A DNA stretch of 64,000 nucleotides, taken from the NCBI GenBank assembly GCA_011525685.1, contig WYBW01000022.1:124001-188000 (forward strand). Reading direction: 5' to 3'. Source of the DNA: Verrucomicrobiia bacterium. GTDB taxonomy: Bacteria; Verrucomicrobiota; Verrucomicrobiia; Limisphaerales; JADLHS01. The position numbers and the translations under genes were made by a program. A model generated the notes under the pieces. It saw only the letters and a program-made list of their open reading frames with translations, did no database searches and had not been told where the DNA came from. Each line of letters begins with the position of its first letter. The first letter of the stretch is position 1. Below are positions 134-63,252 of the stretch, piece by piece.

Positions 134-3100
134 CCTTCCCCTCCATCCGCATTGAAGGTGCGATTCTGTCCGGTGATCTTCTCGCCAAACTCGACAAAGG
201 CGATTTCACCGGCCAGCGGCCTGTTGATTTCGGCTTCGATTCGCAGCCAAAGTTGAAGGAAGAAGTTGTCCGCGCCTGGACGGCGGCACAGGCGTTTTAC
301 ACCGCGTTTCAACACAAGCTCGAAGGCGTGAAGGAAGGGAATGCCGCCACGTCCGAGACGCGCAATCAATGGATGATTCCGCTGCTCGGTTTGCTTGGAT
401 ACGCCGAACTGGAATTCCAGTCCCAATCTGAACTCGTCGGCGACAAGCCGTTCCGCCTGTCGCACCAACTGCGAAGTCACGCCGGTTTCCGCGTTCACAT
501 TGTTGGTGCGCGCGAATCACTCGACAAGAAACCCACGACCGGCCCGCGCGTCAGTCCGCACGCGCACTTGCAGGAATATCTCAACCTCACGGAGCATCTT
601 TACGGCCTCGTCACGAACGGAAAACTCCTGCGCCTGCTCCGCGACTCCACGCGGCTCATCAAGCTCTCCTACGTTGAGTTCGATCTCGACCGGATGTTCA
701 GCGAAGAACTGTTCGCCGACTTCGCGGTTCTTTATCGGCTGCTGCACGTCACACGTCTGCCGCGCTCGCCGGAGAAGTCCGCCGAGTCGTTGCTCGAACG
801 CTATCATCAGGACGCGCTCGAATCCGGCGCGCGCATCCGCGACGGTTTGAGCTTCGCGGTTGAGCAGGTCATTCAGGAACTTGGCTCGGGCTTCCTGGCG
901 CGAAACGAAAGCCTCCAAACCGCTGTCGCCAGCAACTCCGTCAGCGCCCGCGAACTGCATCATGCGCTGCTCCGGTTGATTTACCGTCTGCTCCTGATGA
1001 TGGTCGCGGAGGAACGCGGACTTCTGTTCACTGACGCTGCCACGCTGCGTCAACGAAAACTCTACCTCGACCATTACAGCATCAATCGCCTACGACGGCT
1101 CGCAGAGCGACGCGCGCTGGCGGATTCGACCAAGCACGATCTCTGGCGCGGACTGCGGAGCACGTTCCGACTTTTTGAAACTGACGGTCCTGGCGCACCG
1201 CTGGGACTGACCGGCCTGGGCGGGCAACTGTTCTCCGCGTCTGCCCTCGGCCCGCTGCAATCAGCCGAACTCGACAACGGCACGTTGCTCTCCGCGCTGG
1301 CCAAGCTCTCGCTCTTTCGCCAGCCGGACACCGGCCAGCTTTCGCGCGTGAACTACGGGGCGCTCGCCACGGAAGAATTTGGCTCGGTGTATGAGCGCCT
1401 GCTGGAACTCCATCCGGTCATCAATCCGGCCGTTGGAAATCTCCCGCCCACGTTCACTTTCAAGCAGGCCGCCGGCAATGAACGCAAGACGAGTGGCAGC
1501 TACTACACGCCTTCCAGCCTTGTCGAATGTCTGCTCGATTCTGCGCTCGATCCGGTGCTCGAAGACCGCCTCAAGAATTTCGCCAAGCTCGGCTACAAGT
1601 CCGCCGACGAAGCCGTGCTCGCGCTCAAGGTCTGCGACCCCGCTTGCGGCAGCGGCCATTTCCTCATCGCCGCCGCGCAACGCATTGCCCGCCGTCTCGC
1701 GTTGCTCCGCTCCAAAGGTGACGAGCCGAGCGTGAGCGAACTTCGCCACACTCTTCGCGAAGTCATCAGCCATTGCATCTACGGCGTGGACATCAACCCC
1801 ATGTCCGTCGAGTTGTGCAAAGTCGGTCTCTGGCTCGAAGCGATGGAGGCGGGCAAACCGCTTTCCTTTCTCGACCATCACATCCGCTGCGGCAACAGCC
1901 TGCTCGGTGCGACGCCTGTGCTCATCGCCGAAGGCATTCCCGACGACGCCTTCACCCCCATCGAGGGCGACGACAAGAAAGCCTGTGCTGCGCTGAAGAA
2001 ACTCAATGCCCGCGAACGTCGCGGCTTCGGCGAACTGTTCGTCCTGGAAGACAGCGCCACATCCGAGCGACTGCAACAGGCCGCCGTCGCCGTCGAAAAC
2101 CTGCCCGACGATTCAGTCCGCGCCGTTGAGCAAAAGTCCGCTGCCTTCGAGCAACTCCAGCACAACTACGATTTTGAGAAGGCGACTGACATCGCCAATC
2201 TTTGGTGCGCCGCGTTCGTCATTCGCAAGCGAATGGCCGATGGCGAACAAATGGTTGTGCCCGCCGCACCACTCGCCGCGACTGAAGCAAAACCCGCCCC
2301 CACGCAAACCGGATTGTTCGGCGAGTCGTTTCAACAACCAGCCGGGAAATCCAAGTCGCCCGCGAAAACCACTGGCCAGCCTTCCGGTCTGGCTGAGGCC
2401 ATCGGCATTACCAGCGGCCATCTCCGCGACTTTGCCAAAGGCGCGGCTCTGCCGGACGGCATGATGAAGGAAGCCCGGCAACTGGCCGGCCAATACCACT
2501 TTTTCCATTGGTATCTCGCGTTCCCGGAAGTTTTCAAGCGCGATGGCTTCGACGTGATTCTCGGCAACCCACCGTGGGAGCGAGTGAAGTTGCAGGAAAA
2601 GGAATGGTTCGCTGAACGGCGACCCAACATTGCCGATGCGCCGAACACTGCGGCGCGCAGAAAGCTCATCGAGAAGCTCGAAACCGAAGCACCTGCGCTG
2701 TTCGCTGAATTCCAGAATGCAATCCGGCAAGCGGACGGCGAAAGCCACCTGATGCGAAAGAGTGGACTCTTTCCGCTTTGCGGTCGTGGTGACATAAATG
2801 TTTACGCTGTGTTTGCAGAGCGGATGCGAAACGTGCTTCGCAGAGACGGCAGGTTTGGCGCGGTATTGCCGACAGGAATCGCAACAGACGACACGACCAA
2901 GTTCTACTTCCGAGACTTGCTGGAAAAAAAGTCTCTGATCTCCTTGTTCAGCTTCTTCGAGATAAGAGCCCATTTCCTCGATACAGACAGCCGAGGTCCG
3001 TTTTGTCTGCTTACGTGTGGAAGCTCCGATGCTCCGGTTGCCGAACGTATAGATTTCGTTTTTAGCGCCGACACTGTTGATGACCTTTCAAAACCGAGTA

Positions 3101-4884
3101 AACGATTCACGCTTACGGCTGAGGAGATCGCGCGGCTGAATCCAAATACTCATACCTGCCCAATTTTTCGCTCCCGGCGCGACGCCGATCTTACGAAAGC
3201 CATTTACAGTCGCCTGCCCATTCTCTTGCGAGAAGGATTGGAAGACGGGAATCCGTGGTCTGTCCACTTCATGGCGATGTTTCACATGTCTGGCGACTCC
3301 GATTTGTTCCGGACACGAGAACAACTTGAATCTGAAGGCTGGTTACAAGCCAGCGGCGGATATCGGAAGGACAATGAATTACGACTCGCGCTCTACGAGG
3401 CGAAACTGTTTCACCAGTTTGAGCATCGTTCGAGCGACTATGCCGACCAACCGGCAGGTTCGGAAAGTAATACGCTTCCTGAAATCCCGATTGAACGCCT
3501 CACGAGGCCTGACTACAGGCCATTCGCGCGCTATTGGGTGTCTCAAGTTGAAGTGGAAGCGAGATTACGCGACCGCTGGAATCCTCGCTGGCTTATCGGT
3601 TATCGGCGTATCGCGCGTGCAACCGACGAACGAACGATGATTGTGACGGTGCTTCCAGAGGCGGGTGCGGCTGACCCTGCAATGGTGCTCGTTCCTTCAG
3701 TTCCATACCCGTCAGACGTGATTGGCATCGTTGCGAACCTCAATGCGTTCGTTTGCGACTACTGCGTCCGTCAGAAACTTGGAGGCACTGACCTCCGAAA
3801 TCACTATTTCCAACAGTTCGCAGTTCTGCCGCCCATAACATACGCACAGCCGTGCGCGTGGGGCGGCGGCGCGCAGACGCTCAAGGACTGGCTGTTGCCC
3901 CGCGTGTTGGAGCTGACCTACACCGCGTGGGACTTGGAGGCATTCGCGCAGGACTGCGGCTGGTCCGGTCCACCGTTCCGCTGGGACGAGGAGCGCCGCT
4001 TCCAACTCCGCTGCGAACTCGACGCCGCCTTCTTCCACCTCTACGGCCTGAACCGCGACGACACCGCCTACATCCTCGACACCTTCCCCATCGTGAAGCG
4101 GAAGGACGAAGAAAAGTTCGGCACATACCGCACCAAAGATCGCATCCTCGAACTTTACGACGCCCTGGCAGAATGTCAGCGCACCGCCAAGCCGTTCGTG
4201 AGTTCCCTGAATCCGCCACCAGCGGACGCGCGTTGTTGCCATCCGCCCAAGCAAACCGCCGCTGCCTCGGCTGGGCCTGACGAGGGTTCTCGCCTAGCCG
4301 GTCGTCAAACTGGGCAAACGCTTTCGACACCTGCGCGGCGTGCAGGCACGACGATTCCGACAACCCGCGAACGAATCGGTTCACCGGATTTGGAAGGCGC
4401 AGTGGTGCGCTTTGATTTTACCTTTCCATCAAAGCCTCGACCGCACATCGCAACGACGGCGGAACTATTCACGCTTTTGTTGCCGGCACTGGTTCAAGAA
4501 GCGGGCGGCCAACTCGACTACGAAGAATTTTTGGAAGCGATGTCATTTCTCGCGAATCCGCCAAAATTGCCTGCCACTTTGCCGCCGGACGCTGCATCCC
4601 AATTCGCCAAGTGGCGCACAACATTCCCGTCCAATTTGGTAGATGCCAACGCACTCAAAGCGGCGTTGCACGACCATATCGTGATGCGCAAGACGCTGGG
4701 CATCCTCTCCGATGGAAGCAATTTCGTCCTGTTCAAGGGTGCGCAGTGGGTGGACATGACATTGGATTGGCTGGTGTTCGACGCACGTCTGGCATTGGCG
4801 CACGCGGTAAAGACCCAGACGGCTGAACCAACCTGGACAAGAGCCGTCGCCGAACGCGACCTCAAAGCGTGGGCTGTTGCATAA
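130..4884 (+). CDS. Giant Eco57I-type N6-adenine DNA methyltransferase
   Basis: A 1584-residue protein with the hallmarks of gamma-class N6-adenine DNA methylases: the SAM-binding motif DPACGSGHF at about residue 503, GVDINPMSVELC about 50 residues later, and the catalytic NPPW tetrapeptide at about residue 813. Several hundred residues precede motif I, and a long C-terminal half probably carries target recognition. The size fits single-chain restriction-modification enzymes and the PglX/DrmMI-like methylases of BREX and DISARM, but no nuclease motif was recognised. The start overlaps the upstream stop, and the end is coupled to an ATPase gene. A Pro/Ala-rich low-complexity stretch lies at about residues 1360-1420. 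The family is sure; the role in defence is inferred from context. Confidence 0.88.
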   Translation: MTFPSIRIEGAILSGDLLAKLDKGDFTGQRPVDFGFDSQPKLKEEVVRAWTAAQAFYTAFQHKLEGVKEGNAATSETRNQWMIPLLGLLGYAELEFQSQSELVGDKPFRLSHQLRSHAGFRVHIVGARESLDKKPTTGPRVSPHAHLQEYLNLTEHLYGLVTNGKLLRLLRDSTRLIKLSYVEFDLDRMFSEELFADFAVLYRLLHVTRLPRSPEKSAESLLERYHQDALESGARIRDGLSFAVEQVIQELGSGFLARNESLQTAVASNSVSARELHHALLRLIYRLLLMMVAEERGLLFTDAATLRQRKLYLDHYSINRLRRLAERRALADSTKHDLWRGLRSTFRLFETDGPGAPLGLTGLGGQLFSASALGPLQSAELDNGTLLSALAKLSLFRQPDTGQLSRVNYGALATEEFGSVYERLLELHPVINPAVGNLPPTFTFKQAAGNERKTSGSYYTPSSLVECLLDSALDPVLEDRLKNFAKLGYKSADEAVLALKVCDPACGSGHFLIAAAQRIARRLALLRSKGDEPSVSELRHTLREVISHCIYGVDINPMSVELCKVGLWLEAMEAGKPLSFLDHHIRCGNSLLGATPVLIAEGIPDDAFTPIEGDDKKACAALKKLNARERRGFGELFVLEDSATSERLQQAAVAVENLPDDSVRAVEQKSAAFEQLQHNYDFEKATDIANLWCAAFVIRKRMADGEQMVVPAAPLAATEAKPAPTQTGLFGESFQQPAGKSKSPAKTTGQPSGLAEAIGITSGHLRDFAKGAALPDGMMKEARQLAGQYHFFHWYLAFPEVFKRDGFDVILGNPPWERVKLQEKEWFAERRPNIADAPNTAARRKLIEKLETEAPALFAEFQNAIRQADGESHLMRKSGLFPLCGRGDINVYAVFAERMRNVLRRDGRFGAVLPTGIATDDTTKFYFRDLLEKKSLISLFSFFEIRAHFLDTDSRGPFCLLTCGSSDAPVAERIDFVFSADTVDDLSKPSKRFTLTAEEIARLNPNTHTCPIFRSRRDADLTKAIYSRLPILLREGLEDGNPWSVHFMAMFHMSGDSDLFRTREQLESEGWLQASGGYRKDNELRLALYEAKLFHQFEHRSSDYADQPAGSESNTLPEIPIERLTRPDYRPFARYWVSQVEVEARLRDRWNPRWLIGYRRIARATDERTMIVTVLPEAGAADPAMVLVPSVPYPSDVIGIVANLNAFVCDYCVRQKLGGTDLRNHYFQQFAVLPPITYAQPCAWGGGAQTLKDWLLPRVLELTYTAWDLEAFAQDCGWSGPPFRWDEERRFQLRCELDAAFFHLYGLNRDDTAYILDTFPIVKRKDEEKFGTYRTKDRILELYDALAECQRTAKPFVSSLNPPPADARCCHPPKQTAAASAGPDEGSRLAGRQTGQTLSTPARRAGTTIPTTRERIGSPDLEGAVVRFDFTFPSKPRPHIATTAELFTLLLPALVQEAGGQLDYEEFLEAMSFLANPPKLPATLPPDAASQFAKWRTTFPSNLVDANALKAALHDHIVMRKTLGILSDGSNFVLFKGAQWVDMTLDWLVFDARLALAHAVKTQTAEPTWTRAVAERDLKAWAVA

Positions 4885-15184: not shown

Positions 15185-15253
15185 GTAGCAGCCGACGTGA
15201 GTCGGCTCTGACTTTCTGCGATTCAAATGGAGCGGACTCACGTCCGCTGCTAC
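15185..15253. repeat. Palindromic dispersed repeat (GTAGCAGC...GCTGCTAC type)
   Basis: A 69-bp element with outer ends GTAGCAGCCGACGTGAGTC and its near-complement GGACTCACGTCCGCTGCTAC. It contains two inner hairpins (GCCGAC gtga GTCGGC and AGCGGAC tca cGTCCGCT). It sits between the DUF547 and TVP38 genes. A second copy in reverse orientation lies inside a coding region at 59839-59914, which defines it as a mobile or dispersed REP-like family. Confidence 0.85.
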
Positions 15254-59078: not shown

Positions 59079-59369
59079 ATGAAACATATCAAAAGCATCC
59101 TTGGTTTGATCGTCGGCGCGGCGGTGACGGTCGGGTTGACCGGCTGTGAAGCCGGCAGTGACAAGGGCGGTGGCGGTGGCGGTGGCGGCTCAGGCTCGAA
59201 AACGAGCAGCTATGAACAACCGGCGGTCAACGCGCAATTGTTCGCGCAGTCCGGCTCGAAACCCAGCGAACCGTCGAAGGGTTCAGGCTCGAAAACTAAC
59301 GCGCCTTCCGGTGGCTCGGGCTCGAAGACCAACGCACCCTCGGGCGGCTCTAGCCCGAAGAAGGCGTAG
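59079..59369 (+). CDS. Small Gly/Ser-rich lipoprotein with SGSKTNAP repeats
   Basis: 96 residues with a lipobox (LTGC) after a hydrophobic signal (IKSILGLIVGAAVTVGL). The mature part is low complexity: a Gly run, then repeats GSGSKTNAPSGG (twice) and a related GSSPKKA end. It would be tethered to the membrane surface with a flexible tail. It lies 6 bases before the first glycosyltransferase gene. No known family. Confidence 0.75.
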   Translation: MKHIKSILGLIVGAAVTVGLTGCEAGSDKGGGGGGGGSGSKTSSYEQPAVNAQLFAQSGSKPSEPSKGSGSKTNAPSGGSGSKTNAPSGGSSPKKA

Positions 59370-59375
59370 CCTCGA

Positions 59376-61265
59376 TTGCCCCGACCGTTCTCAACTGGAG
59401 GCAACATCCACGAAAGCAGTTTGAATGTGATCCCAACGTCGCCGAGGCGTTGCCCGGCGAATGGCCAGTTTCGCTGGCTCATCGCGGCGGGAATCGCGCA
59501 GTTGTTTCTCTGGATCGGCGTGGCGGTGGCGGCGGAACGATTCGATCCCGGCGGCGATTTTGGACAACGCCCATTCGCGCTGGTGGTCGGACTCCTCGCC
59601 GCCTGTTTTCTGATCTACCTTTTGAGCCTGGCGCTGGTATGGAAAGCGCCGGAACATCAAGTGACCGCCCGCCGGCAATGGCGGACGGTCTTGATCTTCG
59701 CCGTGCTGTTTCGGCTGGTGCTTTGGTGGTCGCAGCCGATCCAGGAACTCGATCTCTATCGCTACCTCTGGGACGGGCGCGTGTTGGCGGAGGGAATCAA
59801 TCCTTACCGCTACTCGCCGGAGCAAATTGATCTCGTGCGTAGCAGCGGACGTAAGTCCGCTCCAACTGCCGCCGAGGGTGGGGAAAGTCAGAGCCGACTC
59901 ACGTCGGCTGCTACAAGTCCAGGAGGGGATGCCACGCCCGAACTCGCGACGCTCGCCCGTGTGCTGGATCGCTCGCCCGAAGTCGCAAAGATTTTTTCGC
60001 TCATTGACCATCGCAGCGTTCCGACGATCTATCCGCCGTTGAGCGAAGCGGTGTTTGGCGCGACCGCACTTATCACGCCGGAACGCGCGCCGGTGCGAGT
60101 GCAGGTCGGCATTTTCAAAGGAGTGCTGTTGCTGTTCGACCTTGCAACGGTCGTGCTGGTGATGGGGCTGTTGCGAAATCTCAACCAACCGCCCGCGCGA
60201 GCACTGGCTTATGCGTGGTGTCCGCTCGTCCTGAAAGAATTTGCGAACACGGGACACCTTGATGCAATCGCTGTGTGTCTCACCGTCGCCATGTTCTGGC
60301 TGTTGACTTTGCCGCGCCGAGAAAACAACTCAACTTCCGTCGCCAACCAGTTTCCGTTTCGCCCACAATGGTCTGACTGGTTGGCCACAGGGCTGTGGGG
60401 CGGCGCGGTGCTGGCCAAGCTCTATCCGCTCGTGCTCGCACCGGTGCTGCTCGCGTTTTGGTGGCGGCGAGTTCGATGGCACACAGGCGGACTGTTTGCG
60501 GCGTTTGTGCTCGTTGTGCTGGGGGGCTACACGCTACTGCCGCCAAATTCAAAAGCCCCAAAAAACGAAACGGCCGGCACGGCGGACCATTCAAGCTTCT
60601 CCGGCTTGGGCGAATTCCTACGCCGTTGGGAAATGAACGATTTGTTGTTCTCCATCGTGTATGAAAACGTCCGCCTGCGCTCACCGGAGCACGCTGGCCA
60701 AGAGCCGTGGTATTCCGCAGTGCCCAGCGCCGTGCGGGAACGGTTGAACACCACGCTGGCTAAATCTGTTTCAATGATAGGGCTCGATGTTCCCGCGAAC
60801 CGTCTGGCGTTTCTTCTCACGCAGGCGTTGGCGGCGGGGACGTTGCTAGTTCTGGCTGGTGCGCTCGCATCGCGTCGCTGGCCGGATGATCCGCGCGCGA
60901 CGTTGCTTCGGCGCGCGTTTCTCTGTCTCGCATGGTTGTGGTATTTGAGCGCGACGCAGAATCCCTGGTATTGGACGTGGGCATTGCCGCTGGTGGTGTT
61001 TGTTTCGCGCGCGTGGTTGCTCGTGTCGGGTTTCGCGTTGATTTACTACCTGCGCTTCTGGTTCGTTCACCAGTTTCCCGATGCGACCTTGCCCGCCGGT
61101 CTTACAGGCATGAGGTTGTTCGACGAAGTTGTGGTGTGGATTGAACACCTGCCGCCATTGCTCGCAGTGCTCCTGATGTTTTGGTATCAACAACGCAGAG
61201 TCCAACGAACTGCCGTCGCATATCCGGCATCCGACCGTCAACTCGCAGATGCAACCCGCCCTTGA
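59376..61265 (+). CDS. Polytopic membrane glycosyltransferase (GT-C-like), repeat-interrupted
   Basis: About 629 residues with 10 or more hydrophobic helices and the GT-C-type acidic loop ELDLYRYLWDGRVLAEGINPY followed by SVPTIYPPLSEAVF, a pattern shared with the second half of the next protein. A block of about 30 residues (RSSGRKSAPTAAEGG and following) between INPYRYSPEQIDLV and TPELATL is encoded by a palindromic repeat and has no counterpart in the paralogue. The start is uncertain (TTG 59376; GTG 59427 possible). It would add a sugar from a lipid-linked donor; acceptor unknown. Confidence 0.78.
   Translation: MPRPFSTGGNIHESSLNVIPTSPRRCPANGQFRWLIAAGIAQLFLWIGVAVAAERFDPGGDFGQRPFALVVGLLAACFLIYLLSLALVWKAPEHQVTARRQWRTVLIFAVLFRLVLWWSQPIQELDLYRYLWDGRVLAEGINPYRYSPEQIDLVRSSGRKSAPTAAEGGESQSRLTSAATSPGGDATPELATLARVLDRSPEVAKIFSLIDHRSVPTIYPPLSEAVFGATALITPERAPVRVQVGIFKGVLLLFDLATVVLVMGLLRNLNQPPARALAYAWCPLVLKEFANTGHLDAIAVCLTVAMFWLLTLPRRENNSTSVANQFPFRPQWSDWLATGLWGGAVLAKLYPLVLAPVLLAFWWRRVRWHTGGLFAAFVLVVLGGYTLLPPNSKAPKNETAGTADHSSFSGLGEFLRRWEMNDLLFSIVYENVRLRSPEHAGQEPWYSAVPSAVRERLNTTLAKSVSMIGLDVPANRLAFLLTQALAAGTLLVLAGALASRRWPDDPRATLLRRAFLCLAWLWYLSATQNPWYWTWALPLVVFVSRAWLLVSGFALIYYLRFWFVHQFPDATLPAGLTGMRLFDEVVVWIEHLPPLLAVLLMFWYQQRRVQRTAVAYPASDRQLADATRP
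59839..59914 (+). repeat. Palindromic repeat inserted in the glycosyltransferase gene
   Basis: GTAGCAGCGGACGTAAGTCC at the left end and GACTCACGTCGGCTGCTAC at the right end. It is the reverse-orientation counterpart of the 15185-15253 element with a different centre. The reading frame stays open through it. Confidence 0.85.
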
Positions 61266-63252
61266 AGCCAGCGAAACGTCGTTTGCAGGAACGCCGCCCG
61301 CGACGCTCGCGCGGGTGGTTGTGGTCATTCCCGCGCTCGACGAGCAGGCGAGTTTGCCGCGTGTCATCGAGCGATTGCACGGGCTTGGTTTGAAGCGCAT
61401 TCGTGTCGTGGACAACGGCAGCCGCGATCGCACTGCCGAGGTTGCGCGACGATGTGGGGTGGAAGTCATCACCGAGCCGAAGCGTGGCTATGGGCAGGCG
61501 TGCTGGACGGGTTGTGAAAATCTTCCGTCGGATGTGGAATGGATTTTATTCTGCAACGCGGACGGCAGCGACGACATCGAGCGCGTGCCGGAACTTATGC
61601 GGGCGAGTGAGGGAAAAGTTGAACTCGTTCTCGGCGTTCGCACGGCGGACACCAACGGTCAGGACTACCTGACTCCTTCGCAGCGTTTCGGAAACAAGCT
61701 GGCAACCACACTGATTCGACTTTTGTGGTCGGCGAGATATGCCGATCTCGGCCCGTTGCGGCTGATTTCGCGACGGGCATTCGAGCGGTTGAACATGCGA
61801 GACCGTGGCTTCGGCTGGACCGTGGAAATGCAGGTTCGGGCGGCGGAGGAATGCCTGGCGGTCAAGGAAGTGCCCGTGCGCAACTTCGCTCGAACAGCGG
61901 GCTTCTCTAAAATCTCCGGCACGGTCAAGGGCAGCTTCCAGGCGGGCACGATCATTTTGTCCACCATCGCCGCATTGTGGCTAAAGCGGCCCGGCGTGCA
62001 GCGCGCGCTGACTTGGTTCTCCGCGCTTCTGTTACTGGCGGGAGCGGCGGCGATGCTCCCCTTCGGTGATTTCGCAGTGGTGGGCAATGTGCCGCGATTT
62101 CTGATCGGCGCGGGCGTCATGGGGGCGGGCTATGCAGTGAGTTGGGCGTTACGACAGCCAACGCTGCGACTCTTGTGGACCGTGGCGCTGGGCGCGCGGC
62201 TCATGCTCTTGTTCATGCACCCGGGAGATGACATCTGGCGTTACATTTGGGAAGGACGCGTCACGCTCGCGGGCTTCAATCCCTATCAGCTCGCACCGAA
62301 CGCCGACGCGCTGGAGCAGTTGCGGGATTCCGTCGTGTGGCCGCATGTTGGACATCCGACTTTGACCGCCGTATATCCGCCGTTGACGCAACTGTGTTTC
62401 GCTGTGATCGCGTCGCTCGGTTCGGGCGTCATTGTGTTCAAGTTGTTTTTCGCTTTGGTTGATTTGGCCGTGGGCGCGCTCCTGCTGAAGCGATTCGGGC
62501 GCACTGTCGCGCTGACTTACTTGTGGAATCCGCTGGTGATCTATTCCTTCGCCGGCGGCGGCCATTACGACAGTCTGTTTGTCCTGCCGCTGGTCGGCGC
62601 GTTGCTTCTCGCTTCTTCCGAATCCAGCAAACGGAGATCTGCACTGAGCGCCCTGCTGTTGGGTTGCAGCATCGCGGTGAAGTGGGCTTCTGGCCCGTTG
62701 GCATTGTGGTGGGTGTGGCGAGCTTGGCGGAAGCACGGAAGATTTGCGGCGGGGTGGACCGGAATTCTGACGGCGCTGCCGATGCTGACATTGTTGTTTT
62801 TGGTTATTCCGGGCACATCGTGGCAACAACTCGGTCCGCATGACTGGATCACCTATTCGTGGAGCGCGCCATTGCTGCCGAGTGTGATCAAATGGCTGAC
62901 GGGCTTTGCGCCAAATAACCAATTCTATCTGCTGCCTGTTCTGGTGGTTTCCGCCGCCATCGCGATTCGTGTAAAAGAACCGTGGCGCGCGACCGCGATG
63001 TTTTTCTTCGCTGTGCTGGCTTTGTCCCCCGCAAATCACGGCTGGTATTTCACCTGGTTCATCGCCGCCGCCGCGTGTCTGCCCGCTCTAGGGTGGAGCG
63101 CCCGATTGGTAGGCGTCTCGGCCTTCGCTTACTTTTGGGTGCTGCATGTCAACACGACACAGGGCGCTTGGACACTCAGCCCCCAACTCTCGGTATTGTT
63201 GTGGCTGCCCTTCGTAGCGCCCGCGCTGATTGCAATCAAATGGACTCCTTAA
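61249..63252 (+). CDS. GT2 glycosyltransferase fused to a GT-C-like membrane glycosyltransferase
   Basis: 667 residues. The N-terminal cytosolic GT2 domain (about 20-250) has VVVIPALDEQASLPRVI, VVDNGSRDRTAEV, LFCNADGSDD and DRGFGWTVEMQVRA. The remaining 400 residues are a polytopic GT-C-like part (DDIWRYIWEGRVTLAGFNPYQLAPNADAL, TAVYPPLTQLCF), clearly related to the preceding protein. Such a polyprenyl-phosphate sugar synthase plus transferase fusion would make and use a lipid-linked sugar at one membrane site (inference). It overlaps the previous gene by 17 bases. Confidence 0.85.
   Translation: MQPALEASETSFAGTPPATLARVVVVIPALDEQASLPRVIERLHGLGLKRIRVVDNGSRDRTAEVARRCGVEVITEPKRGYGQACWTGCENLPSDVEWILFCNADGSDDIERVPELMRASEGKVELVLGVRTADTNGQDYLTPSQRFGNKLATTLIRLLWSARYADLGPLRLISRRAFERLNMRDRGFGWTVEMQVRAAEECLAVKEVPVRNFARTAGFSKISGTVKGSFQAGTIILSTIAALWLKRPGVQRALTWFSALLLLAGAAAMLPFGDFAVVGNVPRFLIGAGVMGAGYAVSWALRQPTLRLLWTVALGARLMLLFMHPGDDIWRYIWEGRVTLAGFNPYQLAPNADALEQLRDSVVWPHVGHPTLTAVYPPLTQLCFAVIASLGSGVIVFKLFFALVDLAVGALLLKRFGRTVALTYLWNPLVIYSFAGGGHYDSLFVLPLVGALLLASSESSKRRSALSALLLGCSIAVKWASGPLALWWVWRAWRKHGRFAAGWTGILTALPMLTLLFLVIPGTSWQQLGPHDWITYSWSAPLLPSVIKWLTGFAPNNQFYLLPVLVVSAAIAIRVKEPWRATAMFFFAVLALSPANHGWYFTWFIAAAACLPALGWSARLVGVSAFAYFWVLHVNTTQGAWTLSPQLSVLLWLPFVAPALIAIKWTP

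Follow-up and report, generated by a model that had tools for sequence, protein, structure and literature searches.

A GTAG-tagged REP dimer in frame within a membrane protein gene of a Limisphaerales bacterium, and protein loops occupied by several REP families

INTRODUCTION

GTAG-tagged REPs occur inside open reading frames in several species, most of all in Opitutus terrae, a member of the Verrucomicrobia, lying in frame and coding for 20-30 residues (Di Nocera et al. 2013, PMC3733652). Many of the intragenic GTAG REPs described in that paper are in genes for repair and replication, uvrA among them, and in recB two Xanthomonas species carry different REPs at nearly the same place. It also describes the Rickettsia RPEs, palindromic elements with a CGTC tag that are in frame in many unrelated genes, including uvrB, dnaE and a tRNA pseudouridine synthase gene. 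REPINs are REP doublets that form hairpins, and were defined in extragenic space (Bertels and Rainey 2011, PMC3116915).

Here we analyze an element at positions 59839-59914 of a 64-kb stretch of Limisphaerales DNA, the whole of which we call the window. With the GTAG REPs of PMC3733652 it shares the unpaired GTAG foot, a short palindromic stem, multiple copies with complementary, compensatory stem subtypes, and a head-to-head arrangement into dimers that code for 20-30 residues in frame; its spacer of 30 nt at 59862-59891 falls within the 20-100 bp given there for dimers of the superfamily. It appears to belong to a separate family, with the stem AGCSGAC-NNNA-GTCSGCT, present in Limisphaerales and often intragenic. 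The likeness to the RPEs is one of behaviour and not of membership: both are palindromic repeats in frame in unrelated protein genes, but the RPEs as described there carry the CGTC tag, belong to another phylum and have no dedicated transposase (PMC3733652). Like the REPINs, the element pairs two inverted REPs around a variable spacer and folds into one long hairpin, and the dimer is the repeating unit. The Pseudomonas REPINs are extragenic and linked to RAYT genes (PMC3116915), whereas about half of the public copies of the present family are intragenic, and a cognate RAYT was not found in the genomes and loci searched.

Taken alone, the locus 59839-59914 is a case of an already published phenomenon, that of in-frame intragenic REPs and the Rickettsia RPEs. 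In-frame REPs have rarely been handled as a rule-governed system, yet this one family offers many natural insertion alleles, empty counterparts in relatives, one preferred reading frame and refilled loops. The new part, and the one worth following, is the re-use of sites together with RAYTs borne within dnaE. Re-use of identical codons by several REP families and a whole RAYT in dnaE are both absent from the available part of Di Nocera et al. (PMC3733652), and a literature search of limited coverage returned no report of several REP families re-occupying housekeeping loops or of a RAYT inside dnaE.

RESULTS

The element is a dimer of inverted REP units

The original prediction placed a palindromic repeat of 76 bp at 59839-59914, and these coordinates are right; GTAG starts at 59839 and CTAC ends at 59914. 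The element reads GTAGCAGCGGACGTAAGTCCGCT, a 30-nt spacer and AGCCGACTCACGTCGGCTGCTAC. The left unit, comprising the GTAG foot and hairpin, lies at 59839-59861 on the plus strand, and the right unit, whose reverse complement is GTAGCAGCCGACGTGAGTCGGCT, is inverted at 59892-59914 on the minus strand. Both halves fold into hairpins whose GTAG foot is unpaired, and both match exactly the half-site pattern GTAG-C-AGCSGAC-NNNA-GTCSGCT of a family of GTAGCAGCSGAC repeats. The element is two inverted GTAG-tagged REP palindromes, a dimer of the REPIN/BIME type. Folded as RNA it gives a single long and strong hairpin of -43.0 kcal/mol. There is no match to known RNA families in the 64-kb window at gathering scores.

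A second copy of the dimer, of 69 bp, was identified at 15185-15253 by arm match and pattern search; no ORF of at least 120 aa spans it. The reverse match that had been claimed between the two copies is real, and consists of two arms of 34 nt (100%) and 26 nt (96%) complementarity on either side of spacers that are unlike.

How widespread is the family? The census was made by pattern searches. The 23-nt half-site, allowing up to two mismatches, has 23 matches in the bacterium's own 6.73-Mb genome (199 contigs) and the reversed control pattern has none, on which ground a chance palindrome at 59839-59914 was rejected. A genome of the same genus has 106 half-sites. In public genomes we found 60 intact dimers, filed nearly all under Verrucomicrobia/Limisphaerales with a few labelled otherwise; their spacers are 20-32 nt, a range imposed by the search pattern. 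Over the 120 half-sites the variable stem pair is C-G in 67, G-C in 51 and mismatched in 2. Thus complementarity is kept in 118 of the 120, and it is the hairpin itself that is conserved.

A check for short target duplications at the ends of the element had been proposed. No direct repeat is present in the flanks, and over the 60 copies flanking direct repeats of at least 3 nt are at chance level, one being observed where 0.41 are expected. In the bacterium's own genome and six relatives (all drafts), and near copies at other loci, we found no RAYT gene with REPs of this family at its flanks; the PF01797 matches in these seven genomes are flanked by other REP families or by none, and the other RAYTs there carry REP families of their own.

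The host gene and its orthologues

The dimer lies within a gene at 59376-61265 on the plus strand, encoding a 629-aa multi-helix membrane protein that is GT-C-like by the motif DLYRYLWDG..NPYRYSP. ORF analysis shows that the frame of 629 codons stays open across the dimer. The gene had been called that of a glycosyltransferase, for which the one basis is the likeness of the protein to the C-terminal part of the product of the next gene (35% over about 100 aa, E=7.5e-5); it has no Pfam, NCBIfam or PDB-sequence match, and so no solved relative by sequence. The next gene (61249-63252, plus strand) encodes a family-2 glycosyltransferase fused to a domain resembling the host protein, and lacks the insert. 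Just upstream of the host gene, at 59083-59370 of the plus strand, is a small lipoprotein-like gene with repeated GSGSKTNAPSGG segments.

Five orthologous loci, with 39-74% identity to the host, came from a search of 293 genomes of the order. In four of them (G050, G197, G066 and G070), NPYRYSP... runs to ...RSPE/SE...VPTxYPP with the stretch absent and a constant short loop kept, leaving 26 residues fewer in three and 28 in one. Aligned against these four, the host has 26 extra codons, RSSGRKSAPTAAEGGESQSRLTSAAT, at 59838-59915 of the plus strand (residues 155-180), rather than the 30 residues first estimated. The net gain over three of the orthologues is 78 bp for an element of 76 bp; the empty sites are too diverged for the insertion boundary to be read to the base, and net length alone is readable. 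The fifth orthologue (G143, 74-75% identical) is shorter by about 90 residues, lost in frame where the insertion lies. In that genome the orthologue runs on into the family-2 glycosyltransferase that follows it, as a single frame of 768 aa (L176, G143:C86).

The next-gene paralogue had served as the control for the insertion. It does lack the insert, but it is a poor ruler because it is distant and lacks neighbouring residues too, and the orthologues are the proper control. Compared with these, dN/dS is 0.24-0.32 upstream of the insert and 0.18-0.21 downstream, dS being near saturation in the more distant pairs; purifying selection acts on the gene on either side of the insert. Given this selection and four orthologues without the stretch, the insert is derived rather than ancestral. 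The sequence comparisons thus bear out the central claim of the original prediction, that the repeat was inserted in frame and would encode an extra loop without destroying the gene.

These data bear on three other explanations. The loop might be ancestral, its DNA resembling the repeat by chance, or the repeat family might have arisen from the loop. Some encouragement for this comes from the loop sites of GatB and MutS, where relatives carry non-palindromic segments of similar length. Yet the short loop is constant in the four orthologues, both 23-nt half-sites are exact matches to a family found genome-wide, and that family is scattered over many unrelated genes; for the host gene an ancestral loop is refuted by the orthologues, which do not show what had been named beforehand as the refuting case for an insertion, a stretch present in all relatives with unrelated DNA, and we regard it as extremely improbable. 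Nor is it likely that the insertion is recent and damaging, with a frame left open by luck in a gene on its way to becoming a pseudogene. The loss of about 90 residues in G143 at the same place shows the region to be unstable, but the remainder of the host gene is intact with dN/dS of about 0.2-0.3, and the family occupies, in frame, many essential genes whose inactivation would kill the cell. Finally, the sequence is part of a metagenome-assembled draft in 199 contigs, and short repeats are prone to misjoining, so that a collapsed or chimeric repeat must be considered. A 76-bp repeat is however shorter than the usual read length and lies inside a 431-kb contig, the same frame continues on both sides of it in a gene alignable to its orthologues, and filled and empty alleles recur across independently assembled genomes; an assembly artefact is scarcely credible.

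The AlphaFold2 model of the host is helical and of membrane type, with about residues 160-185 as coil at a pLDDT near 30. Its mean pLDDT of 48.9 is too low for structure search, and the model hints only weakly that the insert may be in a variable, tolerant loop.

Copies in frame in other genes

In the bacterium's own genome in-frame copies are found in iscS (Aminotran_5), cas3, an MmeI-type methylase, a dynamin-like GTPase, an ETF-QO/FixC-like flavoprotein and two membrane-protein paralogues. Filled and empty alleles could be aligned for the methylase, iscS and cas3, and in the methylase the net insertion is about 72 bp by hand count. Another genome (G002) has a copy in uvrB. By our reading of the matches, 32 of the 60 public copies have an in-frame position in a conserved gene, either inside its Pfam domains or next to them. 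The genes include mutS, valS, gatB, purL and that of a CN-hydrolase/NAD synthase, and further hosts are DEAD/HA2 helicases, a SWI2/SNF2-type restriction subunit (hsdR), dus and Hen1. For ten copies, most of which lack a spanning frame, the neighbouring ORFs were inspected, and by this measure most of the ten appear intergenic.

The 3′ half of the element is read in a single frame, ...SR/GLTSAAT, in 29 of the 32 in-frame copies, which are partly orthologous and so not fully independent. All three sense frames of the 3′ half are stop-free, and stop avoidance therefore does not explain the bias, which might reflect selection, acting either on the peptide encoded or on the phase of insertion.

Several loci that carry the family have features of their own. 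At L111 a copy at 3402-3470 lies between two convergent ORFs and gives both their stop codons, the ORFs ending at 3402 and 3470. The mutS of G001 (L133) has two more segments that are extra with respect to E. coli MutS, near query residues 60-80 and before MutS domain V; the first (srrrkeadanasatdrlvtsaat) resembles a decayed copy of the same REP family. In a TorD/nitrate reductase delta-like gene of the bacterium's own genome (L026, G000:C5; frame 595-1803, minus strand) this family lies upstream of the conserved domain, as does a second repeat type, AGFQPSVSPTSSRQG...RIGNPRHSRLEVCAT.

The same loops are filled by different REP families

At the sites of the methylase, membrane-protein and flavoprotein genes, G004 and/or G001 hold another REP family within a few nucleotides of the copy in the bacterium's own genome; the methylase site is empty in G002 and G005. 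We read five housekeeping loops (DnaE, PurL, GatB, ValS and MutS) in 14 relatives and the bacterium's own genome, and located both flanks in 60 alleles. The frame is kept in all 60. Nine have 15 nt or less and count as empty; 50 have at least 30 nt, of which 38 are significantly palindromic (shuffle p up to 0.03), where about 1.5 would be expected. At least four REP families occupy the five loops, several of them per site: the one described here, GACAGGCGTC, CCCTCACCCC/GGGGAGAGGG and GTAGCGGC-TCTC. The bacterium's own genome has the GACAGGC family at the PurL, GatB and MutS loops. Non-palindromic segments of similar length are present at GatB in G006, G007 and G014, and at MutS in G143 and G197. 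GatB is a weak example of insertion, since in several relatives its loop is a non-palindromic segment of 60 nt and the ancestral length is uncertain.

Could the insert have been co-opted, with a function selected through contacts of the loop, or through an mRNA hairpin affecting expression or the stability of the message? The whole element is one strong RNA hairpin of -43 kcal/mol, and filled sites are very frequent at the five loops (50 of 60 alleles). But the sequences that fill the sites are unrelated, and empty sites occur too, which speaks against a sequence-specific function, and we think co-option very unlikely.

In the PurL site of G005 (L247, G005:C454:4390-4750) a REP-like pair, GTAGCGCGGGCTGCC...CCTGCACTAC, is apparently inside another, GTAGGCCAGGC...GCCTGTCCTAC, in frame. 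On sequence grounds this suggests a REP nested in a REP. Re-use of the same codon can be explained by tolerance alone, few loops accepting 20-30 residues, or by new REPs inserting into old ones.

A RAYT gene inside dnaE

In both the bacterium's own genome and G001, of the same genus, one and the same loop of dnaE contains a complete RAYT (Y1_Tnp) in frame, with the HUH motifs MPNHVHVL intact. The ORFs are of 1564 aa (L168, G000:C148:15000-26000, minus strand) and 1526-1531 aa (L166, G001:C37), and G013 has the same arrangement at a contig end (L242, G013:C74). The RAYT sequences in the three genomes differ. The RAYT-bearing dnaE matches the replicative DnaE of relatives. Between G000 and G001 the RAYTs are 65% identical with dS of 2.0 and dN/dS of 0.13, whereas the dnaE around them is 91-95% identical with dS of 0.28-0.48. 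The RAYT dS is so far above that of dnaE that these are not simply inherited copies of one insertion, unless the segment has been replaced. The same loop holds a GACAGGC-type REP dimer in G005 and G004, and is empty in G010, G014, G006 and G143.

DISCUSSION

The element has many copies with compensatory stem changes, is absent from orthologues, keeps the frame of its host and has no target duplication. We consider it very probable that it is a non-autonomous mobile REP dimer that inserted in a membrane glycosyltransferase-like gene and survives in a tolerant loop, such loops being recurrent landing sites. By analogy with other GTAG REPs, the dimer would have been inserted by RAYT transposition (HUH, single-strand); as no RAYT flanked by this family was found, the mobilizing enzyme is one that we infer. 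The copy would survive because two of the three sense frames are stop-free, because the length gained is divisible by three, and because the peptide it encodes, rich in Ser, Ala, Gly and Arg, would sit in a tolerant and variable loop. Insertions that break the frame or are otherwise disruptive would be lost; that in-frame, stop-free copies in tolerant loops persist is seen from the outcome. Within the Limisphaerales lineage the loops would then be recurrent landing sites, filled and refilled by different REP families.

A broader proposal is made tentatively, and could well prove wrong. Loops of essential proteins in Limisphaerales may be long-term docking sites for REPs, with new REP families or REP-RAYT units inserting preferentially into the resident REP or replacing it. 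Unrelated selfish elements would follow each other at a single codon without any loss of frame, and the transposase gene could even be an internal domain of the replicative DNA polymerase. Inteins, too, reside in frame at set positions in proteins essential for replication. Here, however, there is no evident splicing domain, the element is a palindrome of 70-76 bp or a RAYT gene in dnaE, and unrelated families share the loops.

The way in which essential proteins gain peptide segments from mobile DNA can now be tested, and tolerance set against REP-by-REP targeting. A transposase carried in frame by the replicative dnaE, where two congeners have different RAYTs at one codon, would be a striking case of a selfish gene sheltered by an essential one. 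RAYT genes also lie in frame elsewhere, namely in a DinG-like helicase gene of the bacterium's own genome (986-aa frame; L169, G000:C22, 3254-6211, plus strand) and in a 1367-aa frame of G004 (L167, G004:C323, 4558-8658, plus strand).
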